DNA from: Bacillota bacterium
Lineage (GTDB): Bacteria; Bacillota; Sulfobacillia; UBA3575; DUQP01
Assembly: GCA_012837735.1 (NCBI GenBank)
Contig: DUQP01000007.1
Coordinates: 1-59,086, forward strand
DNA: 59,086 nucleotides
Reading direction: 5' to 3'
Shown: positions 14,541 through 32,564 of the stretch, one piece after another
Layout: every line of letters begins with the position of its first letter
Position numbering within the stretch: position 1 is the stretch's first letter
Translations under genes and position numbers: made by a program
Notes under the pieces: model-generated
Told to the model about the DNA's origin: nothing
Databases searched by the model: none
Seen by the model: only the letters and a program-made list of their open reading frames with translations

Positions 14541-15374
14541 GTGCGGTTTTTGGCGGCAGCGATCCAGATGAATTCGGGTGGTGACAAGCAGGCTAACATA
14601 GACAAGGCCCTGCAGTTGATTGCCGCTGCGGCCCGGCAAGGGGCCCGGTTGATAGCTCTGCCGGAATATTTCAGCTTTCTTGGCAGCGATGATGAGCGCC
14701 AAAATGTCAGCGAACCAATTCCCGGCGGTCCCACGGTGGGTCGGTTAGCGCAAGCAGCCCGGCAACACGGGGTGGTTTTGCATGGTGGTACCATCCTGGA
14801 GGGTGACCCCTTGGTCGCCCCGCGCGTCTATAACACCAGTGTTGTGCTGGATGAACAGGGTCGGTACTTGGGGAGCTATCGCAAGATTCACCTGTTTGAT
14901 GTCAATATCCCGGGACAGGTGGAAAGCTGTGAATCATACACGCTGGCGCCGGGAGCAAAGGCCGTGGTACTGGATAGCTCGTTCGCTAAGTTGGGTCTAA
15001 CGATCTGCTACGATTTGCGTTTTCCGGAGCTTTTCCGGACCCTGGCTTTGCGGGGAGCCGAGGTGATTTTTGTGCCCGCGGCATTCAGCCTTTTTACCGG
15101 CAAGGATCACTGGGAGCCGCTCTTGCGGTCCCGGGCAATCGAAAATCAGGTCTATATCATCGCGCCGGCTCAAACCGGCTGCGATCCGGTGGGGCGCCTT
15201 TATTTCGGCGGCAGTATGATTATTGATCCCTGGGGGACAGTTGTGGCGCAAGCCCCTGCCGGGGAAGGTTTTGCTCTCGGTATGATCGAACTGGAAAAAA
15301 TAGGAAATGTGCAGCGGCAGGTGCCCTGTCGGGCTCACCGCCGGTTGGATGCCTACGACCTGGGGAGGGAATAG
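14541..15374 (+). CDS. Carbon-nitrogen hydrolase, Nit/omega-amidase-like
   Basis: A 277-residue nitrilase-superfamily amidase. The catalytic triad is E42 (LPEYF), K115 (YRKIHLFD) and C156 (TICYDLRFPE). The IHLFDV and CYDLRFPE signatures are those of the Nit1/Nit2 branch, which hydrolyses omega-amides such as 2-oxoglutaramate or deaminated glutathione. GTG start at 14541 with GGGGAGG upstream. Between a glutamate dehydrogenase and a gamma-glutamyltransferase-like gene, a role in repairing or recycling glutamine/glutathione-derived amides is a fair inference. Confidence 0.88.
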   Translation: MRFLAAAIQMNSGGDKQANIDKALQLIAAAARQGARLIALPEYFSFLGSDDERQNVSEPIPGGPTVGRLAQAARQHGVVLHGGTILEGDPLVAPRVYNTSVVLDEQGRYLGSYRKIHLFDVNIPGQVESCESYTLAPGAKAVVLDSSFAKLGLTICYDLRFPELFRTLALRGAEVIFVPAAFSLFTGKDHWEPLLRSRAIENQVYIIAPAQTGCDPVGRLYFGGSMIIDPWGTVVAQAPAGEGFALGMIELEKIGNVQRQVPCRAHRRLDAYDLGRE

Positions 15375-15375
15375 C

Positions 15376-16953
15376 GTGCAATTGGTGATGGGAACAGGCG
15401 GGATGGTGGCCGCCGCTCATCCTTTGGCCGCTGAGGCTGGCTTAGCGGTCTTGCGGGCGGGCGGGAATGCGGTCGATGCGGCGATCACGACCAATGCTGT
15501 CCTGAATGTGACGCAGCCCGATATGTGTGGGATTGGTGGCGATTTTTTCGCTCTCATTCATGTCCCGGGCGGTGAAACGGTGTTTTTAAACGGGAGCGGA
15601 CGCGCTCCGGCGGCGGCTTCGCCAGAGGCCTTTGCGGAACGCTGCTTGCAGACGATCCCCCTGCGCGGCCTGTTGCCGGTGACGGTCCCGGGTTGTGTTG
15701 ATGCCTGGGATGCGGCCAGGCAGCGTTTCGGAACCTGGGGGTGGGAAGATCTCTTGGTCCCAGCGATTCGTTATGCACGGGAAGGGTTCCCTGTCAGCGC
15801 GCGGTTGGCAGCGGCAATTGAAAAGGCAGTTGATTTGCTCACGGAGCACCCAGCCACGGCGCGCATCTATTTCCAGCGCGGTCGAGCGCCCCGCCCGGGC
15901 GAGCTGTTGGTGCAGCGGGATCTGGGTGAAAGCTTACAGGCAATCGCCAACGGTGGGCGGGACGTGTTTTATCAAGGGGCATTGGCCGCGGCGTTATCTG
16001 CCTACTGTCAACAAGGGGAGGGCCTGTTGACAATTCATGACTTACAAAACCACCGCTCACAGTGGGGTCAGCCGGTGGAGACGGAATACCGCGGTTATCG
16101 CATCCTCCAGACACCCCCCAATACTCAGGGTGTGGCGGTGCTGTTGTTGTTCAATTTGATGGCCGAATTTGATTTAGCCGGCCGGGATCCTGCAGATCCC
16201 GAGCGGGTGCACTGGATGGTGGAGGCCACACGAATTGCTCTTGCGGAGCGTAACCGGTATTTGACAGATCCGGATTTCGTGCCGGTCCCGGACATGACCG
16301 GCAAGGATTATGCCGATAGGCTGCGCCGGCGGATCACAGAAATGGCCGCCAAAAGTAAAACGGTGCCTTGTGAGCCGGGCGATACTACATATTTCGCGGT
16401 GGTCGATGAACAGGGGATGGTCGTTTCCGGGATCCAGAGCATTTTCCAGCCGTGGGGCTGTGGTCAAGTGGTGCCTGGGACGGGGATCTTCTTACAAAAC
16501 CGCGGTTCCTATTTTTCTTTGCAACCTCAGCATGTGAACGTTTTGCAGCCAGGTAAGCGCACCGCCCACACATTATGTGCCTCGCTTATCATGCACCATG
16601 ACGAGCCGTTCCTGGTGTTTGGCACAATGGGCGGCGATGGTCAAGCACAAACTCATCTGCAGGTAATCAGCAATGTGTTGGATGGAGGGATGGACATTCA
16701 AGAGGCCATTTCGGCGCCGCGTTGGTTTCATGGTCGGCGCGATTTCGGGCTCGGTCCGGAGGGGCTATGGTTGGAGGGCCGGTTTCCGTCGGCCCTGGTA
16801 ACGGCTTTGCAAGCCCGCGGCCACCAGGTCGGGGTGGTGGAGGACTACAGCGAGATGATGGGCCATGCCCAGGGGATCATGATCAAGCCGCCCGGCGGGA
16901 CCCGCTTTGGGGCTGCCGACCCGCGCGGGGATGGCTACGTGGCGGCCTACTGA
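15376..16953 (+). CDS. Gamma-glutamyltransferase family protein, YwrD-like
   Basis: A 525-residue Ntn-hydrolase of the GGT family. The autocatalytic nucleophile is T337 in GDTTYFAVVD, where classic GGT has TTH, and the glycine-rich substrate loop FGTMGGDGQAQTH is clear. There is no signal peptide, unlike secreted GGTs. Length, lack of a secretion signal and an altered lid region fit the YwrD branch, which may hydrolyse gamma-glutamyl compounds or act as an acylase. GTG start at 15376, two bases after the upstream stop, with GGGAGGG as ribosome-binding site. Probably an operon with the Nit gene. Confidence 0.86.
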   Translation: MQLVMGTGGMVAAAHPLAAEAGLAVLRAGGNAVDAAITTNAVLNVTQPDMCGIGGDFFALIHVPGGETVFLNGSGRAPAAASPEAFAERCLQTIPLRGLLPVTVPGCVDAWDAARQRFGTWGWEDLLVPAIRYAREGFPVSARLAAAIEKAVDLLTEHPATARIYFQRGRAPRPGELLVQRDLGESLQAIANGGRDVFYQGALAAALSAYCQQGEGLLTIHDLQNHRSQWGQPVETEYRGYRILQTPPNTQGVAVLLLFNLMAEFDLAGRDPADPERVHWMVEATRIALAERNRYLTDPDFVPVPDMTGKDYADRLRRRITEMAAKSKTVPCEPGDTTYFAVVDEQGMVVSGIQSIFQPWGCGQVVPGTGIFLQNRGSYFSLQPQHVNVLQPGKRTAHTLCASLIMHHDEPFLVFGTMGGDGQAQTHLQVISNVLDGGMDIQEAISAPRWFHGRRDFGLGPEGLWLEGRFPSALVTALQARGHQVGVVEDYSEMMGHAQGIMIKPPGGTRFGAADPRGDGYVAAY

Positions 16954-17026
16954 GGCATCATTGTGCACCTCACTCCCATAAGTTACATAAGATGCGGGTA
17001 GAAACAATGGGAAGGAGGTTTTTCGC

Positions 17027-17548
17027 TTGTCTGATCATACAGGTCGTCGCCCCAAGCATCCACCTCGTCCGGAGCCACCGCGTGACCCATGCCCACCACG
17101 GGATCCATGTCCACCGCGGGATCCTTGTCCAGGTTATCCCGATTATCCCGGTTGGCCCGGGTGGGGATACCCCGGTTACCCGAATTATCCGGGTTGGCCA
17201 GGATATCCTGGCTATGGCACAGGTGGTCCGGAAGGATATGGTCCGACTCGCCCCGGTTACCCTGACTGTGCACCATATCCCGGTCATCCTGGTTGTTCTG
17301 GTCCCGGCTATCCCGGCTATCATGTATCGCCGCATGAGGTCCTACGGCGTGTGCAGCCGGCTGTCAGGTACGGGCTGGCGGAGCTAGCAGCAGGTGCCCC
17401 CCCTCGTCATGTCCTCGCTGAGGTGGCGTCCATTTCTTATTTAATGGGGATGGGCTTCCGCTATGAAGAAGCTCTCCGGATGGTTGAGATGTGGGAAGAT
17501 AGAGGGTTCTTGCGCAGCGAGGAAAGTGAAGAAACGACTGAAAAGTGA
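17027..17548 (+). CDS. Pro/Gly/Tyr-rich protein with a helical C-terminal domain
   Basis: A 173-residue protein of unknown function. Residues 1-100 are low-complexity: basic and Pro-rich at first, then three RDPCPP-type units, then about a dozen PGYP / PGWP repeats with five cysteines in all. Residues 100-163 form a soluble, probably helical domain (from HVSPHEVLRR to EDRGFLR). The tail is acidic. No signal peptide. The start is TTG at 17027, with GAAGGAGG seven bases upstream. PGY-rich segments occur in spore-coat, exosporium and phase-separating proteins; a coat role in a possible spore former is a guess. Confidence 0.75.
   Translation: MSDHTGRRPKHPPRPEPPRDPCPPRDPCPPRDPCPGYPDYPGWPGWGYPGYPNYPGWPGYPGYGTGGPEGYGPTRPGYPDCAPYPGHPGCSGPGYPGYHVSPHEVLRRVQPAVRYGLAELAAGAPPRHVLAEVASISYLMGMGFRYEEALRMVEMWEDRGFLRSEESEETTEK
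17081..17134 (+). repeat. Three tandem 18-bp repeats encoding RDPCPP units
   Basis: Three consecutive 18-bp units beginning at 17081, 17099 and 17117, each starting CG-GA-CC and differing at a few positions. They encode six residues each inside the Pro/Gly/Tyr-rich gene. Confidence 0.8.
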
Positions 17549-17576
17549 TCCCCGCCAGCAAGGGAATAATTGCATG

Positions 17577-17604
17577 GAACCCGGCAAATGCCGGGTTCTC
17601 TTCT
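17577..17604 (+). terminator. Terminator after the Pro/Gly/Tyr-rich gene
   Basis: Perfect 9-bp stem GAACCCGGC / GCCGGGTTC with an AAAT loop followed by TCTTCT. It lies between convergent genes and could serve both, though the T-rich side is on the plus strand. Confidence 0.7.
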
Positions 17605-17632
17605 GGGCAGGAATAAGTTTGGCTTTGCGGAA

Positions 17633-18124
17633 TTATCTATGTGTTGCCAATTGCCGCCGGGGCAGCAAACGAGCCACGGCGAGCGTGATCAGACTGTCAG
17701 CGGTGTGGTGCAACAGGGTGCCGAAGCCAATCACCCACAGTGCAAACGAGAGCGGGAAGCCAAACGGTAATACCACCAACGCTTCGCTCAGGCCGTGCAG
17801 GGGGGCGGTGGCTGCCAAAACAGCGGGCAAGGATGTGCCGCGCCGGATCAATAACGCTCCTGCCAGCCCGACGATGATGTGGGTGGCGGCGCGAGCGCCG
17901 ACGATCGGTCCCAACTTGATCAGAAAACCCAATGCCGAGCCGGCCCCAACCATGAAGGCAGCCAGGGGACTGACCAGCATGGAAAGAAAGAGCGGCACAT
18001 GGGAGGCTAGCGTAGCTGAAAAAGGGGGTATGAAAACACCCAAGTAACCGCCGAATGCCAGTGGGATTAGCAATGCCAGGGCTGTCAAGAGAGCCCCGTA
18101 GATTACCTCGCGGGTCTTAGGCAT
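17633..18124 (-). CDS. niaX: ECF transporter S component, niacin (NiaX-like)
   Basis: A 163-residue membrane protein with about five to six hydrophobic segments, the substrate-binding subunit of an energy-coupling-factor importer. The opening GALLTALALLIPLAFGG and the IPPFSATLASHVPLFLSM segment are characteristic of the NiaX niacin family. The shared EcfA/EcfA'/EcfT energising module is not in this window, as is usual for group II ECF systems. Start ATG 18124 with AAAGGAGG upstream. A palindrome overlapping its promoter and a niaR gene nearby support niacin as substrate. Confidence 0.8.
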   Translation of the reverse strand: MPKTREVIYGALLTALALLIPLAFGGYLGVFIPPFSATLASHVPLFLSMLVSPLAAFMVGAGSALGFLIKLGPIVGARAATHIIVGLAGALLIRRGTSLPAVLAATAPLHGLSEALVVLPFGFPLSFALWVIGFGTLLHHTADSLITLAVARLLPRRQLATHR

Positions 18125-18217: not shown

Positions 18218-19222
18218 ATGGTAAAACGCCTGGAGAAATTCAAAGTATCTTTGGTACAGGCCGAGCCGGTGATGTTTAACGCCCAGGCCACAGTGGACAA
18301 GGTCTGCCGCCTGACGGCTGAGGCGGCGGCCGAGGGCGCGAAGCTGATTCTGTTTCCGGAGGCTTTCATCCCCGCTTATCCCTGGGGGCTGACGTTCGGC
18401 GCCTCAGTGGGCCGGCGGACATTTGAAGGCCGTATGGCTTTTGCTCGTTACTGGCAGAATGCGATCGATGTGCCTGGTCCCGAGACGAAGCAGATGGGGG
18501 AAGCAGCCCGCAAGGCCGGTGCTTATCTCGTGGTGGGCGTGATCGAGCGCGACAGCACATTTAGCCGCGGTACGGTGTTTTGTACGGTATTGTTCTTCGG
18601 ACCGGATGGCACATTGCTCGGCAAGCATCGTAAACTGAAGCCAACTGGTTCCGAGCGTTTGATTTGGGGCGAAGGGGACGGCAGCACGATGCCGGTCTTT
18701 GACACAGAACTGGGCCGGATCGGATCTTTGATTTGCTGGGAGAACTACATGCCTCTGGCCCGTACAGCGATGTATGCTAAGGGGGTTGAGCTTTATCTGG
18801 CCCCAACTGCTGATTCCCGCGATACGTGGCAGGCCACCATCCGGCATATTGCCTGCGAAGGCCGCTGTTTCGTACTTTCTTGCTGCCAGTTTGCTCGTAA
18901 CCAGTATCCGGAGGAATTGGAGGTACGTGATGAGGCGAACGATTTCCCGGAGATCCTTTCGCGCGGCGGCAGCGCCATCGTTTCGCCGCTCGGGGATTAC
19001 GTGGCCGGCCCGTTGTTCGGTGAGGAGGGCATCTTGACGGCTGAAATTGACTTGACGCTGGTGGCGGCTGGTAAATATGACTTCGATGTCACGGGACATT
19101 ATGCTAGACCGGATGTCTTCCAGCTGTTTGTGAATGAGGAACCGCTCCAAACTGTTTACACATACAGCAAGGAGTGGGAGATGGATTACGATGATGATTA
19201 TGATGAGGATGATGATGAATAA
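18218..19222 (+). CDS. Nitrilase
   Basis: A 334-residue nitrilase (EC 3.5.5.1-like), which hydrolyses an organic nitrile to its acid and ammonia. Catalytic residues are E48 (FPEAF), K139 (HRKLKPT) and C173 (LICWENYMPL). The HRKLKPTGSERLIWGEGDG block marks true nitrilases rather than amidases. The last 12 residues are almost all Asp/Glu/Tyr. ATG 18218 with AAAGGAG upstream. It diverges from niaX across only 93 bases containing the NiaR-type palindrome, so a pyridine nitrile as substrate is an attractive but unproven idea. Confidence 0.9.
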   Translation: MVKRLEKFKVSLVQAEPVMFNAQATVDKVCRLTAEAAAEGAKLILFPEAFIPAYPWGLTFGASVGRRTFEGRMAFARYWQNAIDVPGPETKQMGEAARKAGAYLVVGVIERDSTFSRGTVFCTVLFFGPDGTLLGKHRKLKPTGSERLIWGEGDGSTMPVFDTELGRIGSLICWENYMPLARTAMYAKGVELYLAPTADSRDTWQATIRHIACEGRCFVLSCCQFARNQYPEELEVRDEANDFPEILSRGGSAIVSPLGDYVAGPLFGEEGILTAEIDLTLVAAGKYDFDVTGHYARPDVFQLFVNEEPLQTVYTYSKEWEMDYDDDYDEDDDE

Positions 19223-20819: not shown

Positions 20820-21422
20820 TTAGGCCATTGCGCTGTATTGGTAACGTTCCATCACCACCGGCCAGTTGATGTTTTGCATGAAGGCATCGATGTATGGGGC
20901 GCGGTGCGCATCGTAATCAATGAAGTAGGCATGCTCATACACATCGATAATCAGCAGGATGGGAGCGCTGGCCACGATACCGACGTTATGGGCATCGAAC
21001 AGGTAGTTATGCAGGCACTTATCGCGATAGTCATAACACAGGGCTCCCCAACCGCGGGAAGCGGCGGCTACCGCTCGAAAATCCTGCTCCCAGGCTTGGT
21101 AGGAGCCAAAGTCTTTTTCAATGGCCCGTAACAAAGGTGGTGGTGGAGCAGTAGGGCAGGGGGTTAAATTTGTAAAATACAGTTCGTGCAAAACTGCTCC
21201 GTCAACATTATATGTTTCTGCCACCTTCAGGGAGCGGAATTCTGTATAGCGTGGATTTTGATTTTCCCGTGTCACATTTGTTAGTTGGGAGCGAATTTCA
21301 TTGGCGGTCTGAACGTAGCCGCGATAGAGGATATCAAAGTGTTGGCGGATCTGGTTTGGTGAGATGCCCTTCAGGTTGAGCAGGGTCGGGTTGAGCGGGA
21401 TGGGCACAATCAGTTCACACAT
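20820..21422 (-). CDS. Fe/Mn superoxide dismutase family protein
   Basis: A 200-residue member of the Fe/Mn superoxide dismutase family, cytosolic. The four metal ligands are all present: H28 (QHFD), H79 (VLHELYF), D160 and H164 (DVYEHAY). The N-terminal helical part is divergent from classical SOD, and a Pro-rich insert (TAPPPP) lies at about residues 91-96. The ATG at 21422 is chosen because GGCAGGTG lies six bases upstream; a GTG at 21431 has no such site. Dismutation of superoxide is the likely activity, but this divergent subgroup is less studied. Confidence 0.85.
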   Translation of the reverse strand: MCELIVPIPLNPTLLNLKGISPNQIRQHFDILYRGYVQTANEIRSQLTNVTRENQNPRYTEFRSLKVAETYNVDGAVLHELYFTNLTPCPTAPPPPLLRAIEKDFGSYQAWEQDFRAVAAASRGWGALCYDYRDKCLHNYLFDAHNVGIVASAPILLIIDVYEHAYFIDYDAHRAPYIDAFMQNINWPVVMERYQYSAMA

Positions 21423-21465
21423 GTCAGACACCTGCCGGAAATGAATTGATGCCCATATATTATGT

Positions 21466-28740: not shown

Positions 28741-30255
28741 ATGATGGAGACCTTTGGTAATCTATTGATGGGTTTTTCGATCGCCCTATCCCCAGTCAAC
28801 CTCTTGTTCGCTGCACTGGGGGTGGTTTTGGGCACGATCATCGGCGCTTTGCCCGGTATCGGCTCTGTGACCGGTGTGGCTGTCCTGTTGCCGATCACAT
28901 TTGGGATGGATCCCACCGCGGCGATCATCATGCTATGCGGGATCTACTACGGTGCCATGTACGGGGGGACGATCAGCTCGGTCTTAATCAATACCCCCGG
29001 CGATGCAGCCACCGTGATGACAACAATTGATGGTCACCAGATGGCGCGCCAGGGTCGCGCCGGACCAGCGTTTGCCGTCTCGGCCACCGGTTCTTTCGTG
29101 GCCGGCACCTTCGGGGTGTTGATGTTAACGCTGGCCGGGCCAGCCCTGGCCAAATGGGGCCTGCAGTTTGGACCGCCGGAGTTTTTTGCGCTGATGGTAC
29201 TGGCCATCTTGAGTTTGGCCGGCCTGGCCGGTTCCTCGCCGGTGAAGGGGATCATCATGGGTGCCCTCGGGTTGATGTTGTCCACGGTTGGTTTGGATAT
29301 CGTGCATGGTACGCTGCGCTTCACTTATGGTAGTGTACAGATGATGAACGGGATCGACTTTTTGCCGGTGGCGATCGGGATGTTCGGTATGGGTGAAGTC
29401 CTGGTGCAAATGGAGAAAATGGAGCGGTTTGATCTGCTCGAAACAAAGTTCCGGTTGCGCGATCTTTTGCCGACCGCTCAGGACTGGGTCCGTAGCCGCT
29501 GGGCGATCGTACGCGGCACCCTGATTGGGTTTGTGATTGGCGTCTTGCCGGGAGCCGGTGCCACGATCGCTTCCTTTCTCGCTTATGCCACGGAGAAGCG
29601 CTGCTCCCGTCATCCGGAAGAGTTCGGTCGGGGAGCGATTGAGGGGGTGGCCGGTCCGGAGTCGGCGAACAATGCCGCTTCGGCTGGGGCTTTGGTGCCG
29701 ATGATGACGCTCGGGATTCCGGGTTCTGGCACCACAGCGGTTTTGTTGGGGGCTTTCATGATGTATGGGTTGCAGCCGGGGCCGCTCTTGTTCAAGAACC
29801 ACCCGGATTTCGCCTGGGCCCTGATCGCCAGCATGTACATTGGCAACATCATGCTGGTGGTGTTGAATACCGCCTTTATCCCCACATTTGTCAGTGTCTT
29901 GAGGATGCCCCAGACGATCATGATGCCGGGCATCCTGGTATTGACGGTGGTCGGTGCCTATAGTTTAAGCAACAGCATGGCGGATGTCTGGATCATGATC
30001 ATCTTTGGCGTGATCGGTTATTTGGTGAAGGTGTATGGATACCCGCTGGCCCCCCTCATCATCGGGCTGGTTTTGGGTCCGCTCACCGAGGTCAACCTGG
30101 CCCGCAGTCTGATGATGTCGCAGGGATCGTTCGCTATTTTCATGGAGCGCCCGCTGTCCATGGTGCTGTTGCTGGCCAGCCTGGTTGCCATCATTATTCC
30201 CCTGGCAAGGCAGCTGATGGGCAGACAAAGGAGCCATTCCGGGGTATCCGCTTAG
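28741..30255 (+). CDS. tctA: Tripartite tricarboxylate transporter large permease subunit
   Basis: A 504-residue permease with about 11-12 hydrophobic segments. TctA signatures are clear: IGALPGIGSVTGVAVLLPITFG, GIYYGAMYGGTISSVLINTPGD and the repeat-half motif GVLPGAGATIASFLAY, with PESANNAASAGALVPMMTLGIPGSG later. It uses the ion gradient to move the carboxylate delivered by TctC. AAGGAG precedes the ATG. The stop overlaps the stop of the opposing response regulator gene by four bases. Confidence 0.95.
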   Translation: MMETFGNLLMGFSIALSPVNLLFAALGVVLGTIIGALPGIGSVTGVAVLLPITFGMDPTAAIIMLCGIYYGAMYGGTISSVLINTPGDAATVMTTIDGHQMARQGRAGPAFAVSATGSFVAGTFGVLMLTLAGPALAKWGLQFGPPEFFALMVLAILSLAGLAGSSPVKGIIMGALGLMLSTVGLDIVHGTLRFTYGSVQMMNGIDFLPVAIGMFGMGEVLVQMEKMERFDLLETKFRLRDLLPTAQDWVRSRWAIVRGTLIGFVIGVLPGAGATIASFLAYATEKRCSRHPEEFGRGAIEGVAGPESANNAASAGALVPMMTLGIPGSGTTAVLLGAFMMYGLQPGPLLFKNHPDFAWALIASMYIGNIMLVVLNTAFIPTFVSVLRMPQTIMMPGILVLTVVGAYSLSNSMADVWIMIIFGVIGYLVKVYGYPLAPLIIGLVLGPLTEVNLARSLMMSQGSFAIFMERPLSMVLLLASLVAIIIPLARQLMGRQRSHSGVSA

Positions 30256-30941
30256 ACCAGGCGATACATTCTTCTGGGCCGTCCGACCGATCCATAGCAT
30301 TGTTCCACCGTGACAGCCCCTGTCCGGGCCAGGTAGTCCAGATAGCGGTGGGCGGTGATACGCGCAATACCAAGGGCCATAGCCGCTTCCTGCGCTGAGA
30401 TGGGAGCGGCTTGCCCTTCCATCAAGGCCAGCACCCGGTCCAGTGTCAGGCGATCCAGTCCCTTCGGTAGTTCCTCGTCCGGGAGTACCATGGGCTGTGG
30501 TCGTTCCCCGCCGTTTGTCAAGCGATCCAATGCCACCTGGTCCAACTGTTGTTTTCCTTTCAGTTGGCGGCGCCGTTCCTGAAAGGAATTCAGGGCTTGG
30601 GCCAGCCGCTCAAAGCTGAACGGTTTTATGATGTAATCCACCGCTCCGCAACGCAGGGCATTGCAGATTGTATCGGTGTCCTGGGCGGCGGTGATGAATA
30701 TCACATCACAGTCTACCGCAGCGGTCCGTAAACGCTGAATCAACTCCCGCCCGTTCATGATCGGCATGTAGACATCCAAAAGTACCAGATCCGGTTTCAT
30801 GCGCCGAATGGCCTGGAACGATTCTTCGCCATTGCCGGCTGTGCCGATTACGCGAAATCCCGGCACTTGTTCTGTGAAGCGGCGATTGATGTGTGCCACC
30901 ATCGGATCGTCCTCAACGATAAAAACCCGGATGTCGTCCAT
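30252..30941 (-). CDS. Response regulator, CitB/DcuR family
   Basis: A 229-residue two-component regulator. The receiver domain (1-120) has the acidic pocket E10-D11-D12, phospho-acceptor D56 (LLDVYMP), T84 region ITAAQ and K106 in IKPFS. The C-terminal domain carries a helix-turn-helix (SAQEAAMALGIARITAHRYLDYL), as in regulators of C4-dicarboxylate and citrate genes. It follows the kinase gene by three bases. Its probable target is the convergent tct operon and its own operon. Confidence 0.92.
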   Translation of the reverse strand: MDDIRVFIVEDDPMVAHINRRFTEQVPGFRVIGTAGNGEESFQAIRRMKPDLVLLDVYMPIMNGRELIQRLRTAAVDCDVIFITAAQDTDTICNALRCGAVDYIIKPFSFERLAQALNSFQERRRQLKGKQQLDQVALDRLTNGGERPQPMVLPDEELPKGLDRLTLDRVLALMEGQAAPISAQEAAMALGIARITAHRYLDYLARTGAVTVEQCYGSVGRPRRMYRLV

Positions 30942-30944
30942 AAA

Positions 30945-32564
30945 TTACCCTCCTGTCGTCTCCCAGATCGGAATGGAGACCGTGAATTCGCACCCGCCGC
31001 CGGGCGGTGTGGTGATGCTGATGCTTCCGCCCGCCCCCTGGACCGCACGTTGCACCAAAAACAGCCCCAACCCGCAGTGCCGTTCCTTGCTAGTGACACC
31101 GCGTTCAAAAACCAGTGCCTGGAGCGCCGGCGCGATCCCCGGCCCGTTATCCCGCACTTTAACCACCAGCGCATCTGCCTCCTCAAACAGAGCCAACCAG
31201 ACGCGGTGACCTCCTGGCTGTCCCTCCACCGCCTCGATGGCGTTTTGCAGCAAATTGCCCAATACAACTGCCATCTCATTGCTTTGAAAGTGGCGTGGCA
31301 AATCTGCCAGATGGGAGGCCGGGTCAATCTCCAATGCCACCCCGCGCTCACGCGCTTCGCTGATTTTGCCCAGGATTAACCCGGCAGTGGCCGGGTCCTG
31401 CACGCGTTTGGTGAGGAAGCTGACGGCGTCCTGCTGCGCTTTGACGGTTTTTGAGATGTAGGCTAAAGCCTGATCATGCAGGCCAAGCTGGAGCAGGCCG
31501 GAGACCGTGTGTAGGCGGTTGATGAACTCGTGCTTTTGGGACCGCAAAGCTTCCGCCAACCGCTTCACTCCGGTCAATTCTTCTGCTAGCCTGGCCACGG
31601 CAGTTTTTTCCCGGAACGAAGCCACTGCTCCCACCACTTCGCCATCAACCACGATTGGCAGGCGGTTCGTCACGATCGATGTCTCGCCGATCAGCTGCTC
31701 GCAGTCGTATTCTCCCTGCCCGCTGCGCAAGAGCTGTGGCAGGCGGGTGTTTGGGATGGCCTCGGTCACCGGCCTGCCCACCAGGGGCTGTCCGCCGGCG
31801 ATGATGCGGCGCGCCTCATCATTAGCCAATACGATTTTTTCATCTCTGTCGATCGCCACGATCCCTTCGCGTACAGAGGAAAGGATTGCTTCCCGCTGTT
31901 GCAGGAGGGTGGCGATCTGCCGCGGCTCCAACCCAAAAATGGTCCGTTTGATACTCTGTGCCAGGGCAACCGCTCCTGCTATCCCGAGCAACAAGGCTCC
32001 TCCACTGGCCAAGCACAACGAGCGCTGTACTCTGCTAATCTCAGCGGTGAGAGTGTTTTGCCAAATGGCCACCCCGACCACGCCAAGCTGTTGACCGGTG
32101 CGGGCGTAAATTGGTGTAAAGGCGTACAGGGTAGGCTCATCACCGCGTGCGGAACGGGTGATGACATCATGACCGGCCAGAGCTTTTTGCACCCCAGCTT
32201 CCTGAAATGGCTTGTGTAAGCGGCTCGGGTTGGGGTGGGCATAGCAAGTGCCGTCCTGCCCGAGAATGATTACCAGCTCGGCCGCCGTGCGGCTGCGGAT
32301 TCCTTGTCCCAAAGGTTGCAGGACAAGAGCCGGATTTTGCATGACAAATGCCTCCCGCACTTGCGGTGAGTCCGCGATCGTATGCGCCAGGTCTAGTAGG
32401 TGGGTCCTGATCCGCTCTTCGTTTAACCGATTCACAACCGTGTAAGCATAACCGCCGACGATCGACAGGGCGACCAATAATACAGCCACTACTAATAATA
32501 CAATCATAGCCCGCAAAGAAATGTGCAATCGTTGCCGTCGCCGCGGTGTGTCTGCCGGTAGCAT
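30945..32564 (-). CDS. Sensor histidine kinase, CitA/DcuS family
   Basis: A 539-residue membrane kinase. Transmembrane helix 1 (about 19-43), an extracytoplasmic PDC/CitA-type sensor domain (44-180), helix 2 (about 182-205), a PAS domain (about 220-325), then the HPK core. The phospho-accepting His is H345 in SQKHEFINRLHTVSGLL, the SpoOB-like box of this family. The ATPase part has NLLQNAIEAV, DNGPGI and GLGLFLV. It detects an external carboxylate in known relatives. Its ATG is three bases after the pdxA2 stop with no clear ribosome-binding site, so translation depends on coupling. Confidence 0.93.
   Translation of the reverse strand: MLPADTPRRRQRLHISLRAMIVLLVVAVLLVALSIVGGYAYTVVNRLNEERIRTHLLDLAHTIADSPQVREAFVMQNPALVLQPLGQGIRSRTAAELVIILGQDGTCYAHPNPSRLHKPFQEAGVQKALAGHDVITRSARGDEPTLYAFTPIYARTGQQLGVVGVAIWQNTLTAEISRVQRSLCLASGGALLLGIAGAVALAQSIKRTIFGLEPRQIATLLQQREAILSSVREGIVAIDRDEKIVLANDEARRIIAGGQPLVGRPVTEAIPNTRLPQLLRSGQGEYDCEQLIGETSIVTNRLPIVVDGEVVGAVASFREKTAVARLAEELTGVKRLAEALRSQKHEFINRLHTVSGLLQLGLHDQALAYISKTVKAQQDAVSFLTKRVQDPATAGLILGKISEARERGVALEIDPASHLADLPRHFQSNEMAVVLGNLLQNAIEAVEGQPGGHRVWLALFEEADALVVKVRDNGPGIAPALQALVFERGVTSKERHCGLGLFLVQRAVQGAGGSISITTPPGGGCEFTVSIPIWETTGG

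Follow-up and report, generated by a model that had tools for sequence, protein, structure and literature searches.

A proline-, glycine- and tyrosine-rich protein of a Bacillota bacterium, with a small helical domain found in spore formers, as a probable late component of the spore envelope

The window analyzed here, i.e. the whole 59,086-nucleotide stretch of a Bacillota contig, contains on its forward strand at 17027-17548 a 173-residue reading frame from the ORF list that begins with TTG, is preceded by a strong ribosome-binding site (GGAAGGAGG, 17010-17018, + strand), and carries in frame a C-terminal domain with homologues; it is a real gene. Farther upstream on the same strand lies a sigma-K-type promoter motif (16967-16994) consisting of the -35 AC at 16967-16968, a 17-nt spacer and the -10 element CATAAGAT(G) at 16986-16994, found by motif matching and of the same type as motifs 5' of homologues; no sigma-70-type promoter was matched in 16800-17800. 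The gene is followed at 17576-17599 (+ strand) by a 10-bp G+C-rich hairpin with a weak T tail, which by its folding (-20.1 kcal/mol for the 45-nt stretch, z -2.84) is a possible terminator, so that the gene may be transcribed alone; this hairpin is not among the entries of the terminator scan. The 5' neighbor is a gamma-glutamyltranspeptidase and the other neighbor, on the opposite strand, looks by eye like an integral membrane protein and has no Pfam match; these immediate neighbors give no clue to function. Two carbon-nitrogen hydrolases and the gamma-glutamyltranspeptidase surround the gene (14541-15374, 15379-16953 and 18218-19222).

The protein is divided into a low-complexity tail, residues 1-101 (17027-17329, + strand), and a helical domain in the C-terminal part (17330-17506, + strand). 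The tail is 66% Pro, Gly, Tyr, Trp or Met and consists of three RDPCP units at residues 19, 25 and 31 (RDPCPP twice, RDPCPG once) followed by 11 PG[YWH] units (7 PGY, 3 PGW and 1 PGH); residues 1-100 include 31 Pro, 20 Gly and 12 Tyr, and when these 100 residues were shuffled 20,000 times the PG[YWH] count averaged 1.18 and never exceeded 6, versus the 11 observed. Many of the repeat units use differing codons, which suggests that it is the protein repeat that has been maintained, as opposed to a recent duplication of DNA. The entire protein has 15 Tyr, 4 Trp and 5 Cys together with only 2 Lys and 1 Gln, and a hydropathy scan reveals no hydrophobic N-terminal segment or secretion signal, the top 19-residue mean being 0.76 at residue 128. 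A preliminary description of this DNA, which had pointed to RDPCPP and PGY/PGW repeats in the first 100 residues, a folded helical C-terminal domain and the absence of a secretion signal, is thus borne out in its anatomy by the repeat counts, the hydropathy scan, and the structure prediction and homologues that follow.

The AlphaFold2 model of residues 99-173 (mean pLDDT 87.6, pTM 0.74) shows a domain of ~58 residues with three main helices, at model residues 4-23, 28-43 and 48-61, and a short fourth helix at 67-74. The commonest core of the family is E-P-x-V-x-H-G, then a helix ending in L-x-G-x-G, then A-x-x-x-V-E-x-W-E. No match of weight was found among the solved structures searched (Foldseek best E 0.87, to a designed protein; VIA-align best Z 5.1). 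A weak likeness of the helix-GxG-helix part to RuvA domain III and UBA-like three-helix folds is below significance by profile (E 0.13), by Foldseek (E 3.1) and by VIA-align (Z 4.4 over 48 residues). No description of the domain was found among the titles and abstracts listed in literature searches.

The preliminary description had proposed a homologue search with the C-terminal domain alone, and had held that membership of this domain in a familiar enzyme or housekeeping family would speak against its reading. With the C-terminal 78 residues as query, 11 of 101 genomes, the domain's own among them, match at E<=0.01, and 0 Pfam or NCBIfam families were found at E<=10 with the whole protein and the C-terminal part searched separately; the domains of other members gave only sub-cut-off matches to the same libraries. 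The whole protein as query gave no match in a scan of genome contigs, and PHROGs gave none. Profile A1, built from 12 rows of the direct search, located the domain in 10 of 154 genomes of the class, and an evenly drawn set of 398 genomes of the phylum yielded 29 matching at E<=0.01, 20 of which, at E<=1e-4, were kept (18 of them new to A1). A 24-row profile returned the same 20/398 phylum and 10/154 class carriers; since some of the sequences in profiles A1 and A6 come from the searched genomes themselves, such repeat searches corroborate the list without being independent evidence for it. The nine phylum genomes that were dropped lay between E 1e-4 and 0.01 and none returned with the 24-row profile, several of these weak matches being by eye other proteins (two argininosuccinate-lyase-like, one sigma-54 activator-like). 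One further match (L012 in genome G068, E 0.005 over 27 aligned residues) was set aside because the profiles did not recover it and its genome has no SpoIVA match.

The domain occurs in several architectures, among which Pro/Gly/aromatic/Met-rich tails recur on either its N- or its C-terminal side. The tail precedes the domain in the window protein and in L010, L026-L030, L032-L035, L038, L040, L041 and L189 (from a Priestia megaterium plasmid), follows it with PGM, PGY or GK repeats in L003, L004, L006, L008 and L011, and is short and non-repetitive in L005, L007, L009 and L014; very short tails are seen in L189 (13 residues) and L033 (18 residues). In a table of 21 stand-alone proteins, from which the near-copies L027, L034 and L035 as well as L042 and L031 were excluded, the tails are 54-76% P/G/Y/W/M in 16 and 33-48% in the other five (L005, L007, L009, L014 and L040). 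The domain is also fused to rubrerythrin-like proteins, preceding that part in L013 (PF02915 1.8e-7) and following it in L036 (PF02915 1.2e-8) and, by sequence likeness, in L043. The order has thus been swapped between lineages, the match in L013 (G089:C34) lying at 1501-1698. A homologue with two in-frame TAG codons (L031/L151, G502:C192:7473-7652) may reflect a disrupted gene, an error in sequencing, or an alternative use of the TAG codon.

A third set of fusions places the domain after a cupin (L037, PF07883 3.7e-10; L039; L053). Two contigs of a viral collection (L054, L055) have the same arrangement together with a sigma-K-type motif and may be pieces of spore-former chromosomes binned as viral, or prophage flanks. 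The named cupin-fusion loci fetched were the best 80 of 166, mostly from Bacillus, Peribacillus, Sporosarcina, Lysinibacillus, Virgibacillus, Halobacillus and their kin, and the C-terminal domain is present in 77 of these 80 (76 by motif and L108 by eye; it was not read in L116, L129 and L133). The domain hardly varies among the 31 sequences aligned out of 73 distinct domain strings, and the full-length cupin model is poor (mean pLDDT 52). In 18 of the best 80 loci the cupin gene is adjoined, mostly on the opposite strand, by a gene of a single cluster with a Tyr/His/Pro-rich start, whose representative has a weak match (1.2e-5) to DUF2202, which we take to be ferritin-like. Records labelled Stenotrophomonas, Arthrobacter and Pseudomonas (L193, i.e. 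CP031730.1, L059 and L077) hold cupins of the Bacillaceae spore type and look mislabelled or contaminated; the three genes of L193 match those of the Lysinibacillus plasmid locus L192 in kind and order.

The window protein is apparently encoded by an endospore former, as judged from the genes of its own genome, which has a SpoIVA match of 6.9e-115 and a sigma-K that at 365 bits is over the model cut-off. Recurrence of the domain in spore-forming Bacillota is seen in the presence of SpoIVA in 20/20 confident phylum carriers and 10/10 class carriers; however, SpoIVA is so common (336/398 phylum and 137/154 class genomes; hypergeometric 0.03 and 0.30) that this co-occurrence is weak, nearly uninformative evidence. 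Because the domain is found in only 20/398 genomes and most spore formers are without it, it does not belong to the core of the coat.

We take the sigma-K -10 string to be CATANNNTA, spaced ~16-17 nt from the -35. The motif of the window gene, AC-N17-CATAAGATG, fits in the -35 and the first eight -10 positions and has as its last base G versus the A of that string, thus ending in TG versus TA. The sigma-K -35 element is reported to be AC and its -10 to be very similar to that of sigma-E (PMC3789822). After the motif was noticed at the window gene, other genes were searched within 120 nt upstream for AC-N15..18-CATANNNT. The full motif was found 5' of 17 of 30 domain genes (16/29 without the window gene) versus 0.57 expected from Markov shuffles, and CATANNNT alone 5' of 23/30 versus 3.4 expected. 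The 30 genes include the cupin and ferritin-like fusions L036, L037, L039, L053, L054, L055 and L013; L031/L151, L043 (below the E 1e-6 cut of this test) and L042 (no start codon) were not part of it. Among the 13/30 genes without the full motif as scored are L005, L009 and L053, whose starts are probably misplaced and which were counted as misses.

Motif-positive domain genes span at least 10 families, and the motif is found in only 2/90 neighboring genes of the relatives' loci versus 17/30 (Fisher 8e-11) and in 2/62 window genes, the gene at 17027-17548 not being among the two matches listed. Among the best 80 of 166 cupin-fusion loci the motif is present in 67 (2.7 expected) versus 25/553 neighbors (Fisher 1e-55). 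These Fisher values overstate significance because related genes are not independent, but the contrast in motif frequency between the domain or cupin genes and their neighbors in the same loci is large. An unplanned confirmation came from a plasmid gene of Priestia megaterium KF18, annotated only as hypothetical, whose product is 47% identical to the domain of the window protein over 55 residues; this gene was found after the promoter test and carries the full motif.

From this anatomy, the shared domain family, the sporulation genes of the hosts and the enrichment of sigma-K-type motifs, we judge it probable that the 17027-17548 protein is a structural component of the spore coat or an outer layer, that its gene is transcribed under sigma-K, and that it has a self-associating tail and a domain acting as an assembly module. 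Transcription by sigma-K RNA polymerase would occur late in the mother cell, and the protein would then join the spore shell, in the coat or an outer layer. The disordered Pro/Gly/Tyr/Trp tail would provide multivalent chains that self-associate by contacts between aromatic residues, with oxidized Tyr-Tyr or Cys-Cys bonds perhaps fixing them in place, and the compact C-terminal domain would bind itself or a coat partner and thereby place or oligomerize the protein in the layer. The guess of the preliminary description that such a protein belongs to the spore coat is supported in direction by strong indirect evidence (SpoIVA and sigma-K in the host, the motif, and the rubrerythrin-like and cupin fusions); location in the spore itself is what we infer from these.

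Cupins that have no such domain bear on a division of labor that we consider possible though on balance unlikely, namely that the tail alone is functional and the C-terminal domain is a folding or oligomerization cap or a remnant. Ten cupin loci were taken from plasmid records (10 of 20 matches listed, of 260 records with a match), and the domain is present in one of them (L190). Seven others (L191-L197, of which L192 and L193 are near-copies), from spore formers or look-alike records, are without it and yet have a Tyr-rich start in 7/7, CATANNNT in 7/7 and the full sigma-K motif in 5/7, so that the domain is not required in these cupins. The two from outside the endospore formers, Carnobacterium and Streptomyces, have neither tail nor motif (2/2). 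Thus in the fetched cupins it is the Tyr-rich tail, not the domain, that tracks sporulation, and the domain as a cause of sporulation expression was rejected because domain-less cupins of spore formers also bear the motif. The domain is accessory in cupins, yet the Bacillaceae fusions keep it nearly unchanged. This near-invariance, and its persistence beside very short tails (L189, L033) or non-repetitive ones (L005, L007, L009, L014), argue against a mere cap or remnant; selection apparently acts on the domain itself.

A sigma-K-dependent mother-cell protein could also act outside the shell, as a soluble storage protein, a chaperone, or a metal-handling partner of ferritin-like or cupin proteins. 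Fusion of the domain to rubrerythrin-like and cupin folds, which usually bind metal, agrees with such a role, and the promoter evidence addresses timing only; we nevertheless think it improbable, since tails of 54-76% P/G/Y/W/M in 16/21 stand-alone proteins, and in the window protein repeats far above shuffles, look structural, and the window protein is without an enzyme-family match. A vegetative or surface adhesive unrelated to sporulation is very improbable, for although PGY-type composition is also seen in adhesives and phase-separating proteins, no signal peptide is seen in the hydropathy scan, the sigma-K-type motif is common to homologues, and 16800-17800 has no sigma-70-type match.

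A structural role in the spore envelope is in keeping with several known spore proteins, the comparisons with YeeK and YhjR being of description. YeeK is a small Gly/Tyr-rich coat protein, and the window protein is likewise small and Gly/Tyr-rich. In Bacillus subtilis YeeK is reported to be a sigma-K-dependent inner coat protein that is cross-linked by Tgl (PMC6490927), i.e. a transglutaminase substrate; the window protein, by contrast, offers for such links no more than 1 Gln and 2 Lys. With so few of these residues transglutaminase links are unlikely, and this mode of cross-linking is disfavored. YhjR is ferritin-like, as are by description the rubrerythrin-like parts fused to the window domain's homologues in L013, L036 and L043; unlike YhjR, the window protein is without a ferritin-like domain. 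YhjR is reported as a sigma-K inner coat protein (PMC9484137) and is listed under spore coat (PMC3533761). In C. sordellii the outer spore proteins are reported to include a cupin protein and reverse rubrerythrins (PMC5927469), and this cupin is likened to the domain fusions by kind of protein alone. The Bacillaceae spore cupins share with the window protein the Tyr-rich N-terminal tail, the C-terminal domain (77/80) and the sigma-K motif (67/80), but differ in having a cupin between tail and domain and in having some relatives without the domain.

Low-complexity coat proteins are already known; what is new is a small domain that is absent from the searched family libraries and that occurs in several architectures with sigma-K-type motifs. 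Outside Bacillus and Clostridioides, coat proteins show little conservation and are difficult to recognize. A small domain that profiles can detect, that occurs with sigma-K-type motifs in organisms ranging from Symbiobacterium-like bacteria to Bacillaceae, and that adjoins low-complexity tails or ferritin and cupin folds offers a way to the late coat genes of uncultured spore formers. As a candidate assembly module common to these proteins it is also open to experiment. A more speculative extension, which we hold to be rather doubtful, is that the domain is an envelope assembly plug-in across Bacillota by which Tyr-rich tails (Symbiobacterium-like bacteria), cupins (Bacillaceae) and ferritin-like cargo would all dock on one coat partner.

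A candidate link to a superoxide dismutase gene of the window was also tried. The Fe/Mn enzyme (PF02777 by Pfam match; 20820-21431, - strand) is the only one of the genome, and its gene is preceded by a strong sigma-K-like motif, AC-N17-CATAATATA (21483-21456, - strand; motif match), 3.3 kb from the gene at 17027-17548. SodA is reported to assist tyrosine cross-linking (PMC3533761), and C. difficile sodA to be under sigma-G control (PMC3789822). Within 150 nt upstream the motif is present in 0/17 close homologues (42-50% identity), i.e. in 1/18 when the dismutase gene of the window is included, and in 0/12 distant homologues (30 loci fetched). The motif is thus unconserved, and the link of dismutase-assisted Tyr cross-linking was rejected and is not built on. 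Elsewhere in the window, at 28741-32564, genes for a TctA-like permease, a response regulator and an sCache/PAS/SpoOB-type sensor kinase lie together in an arrangement that by eye resembles control of carboxylate uptake, the kinase domains being recognized by Pfam.
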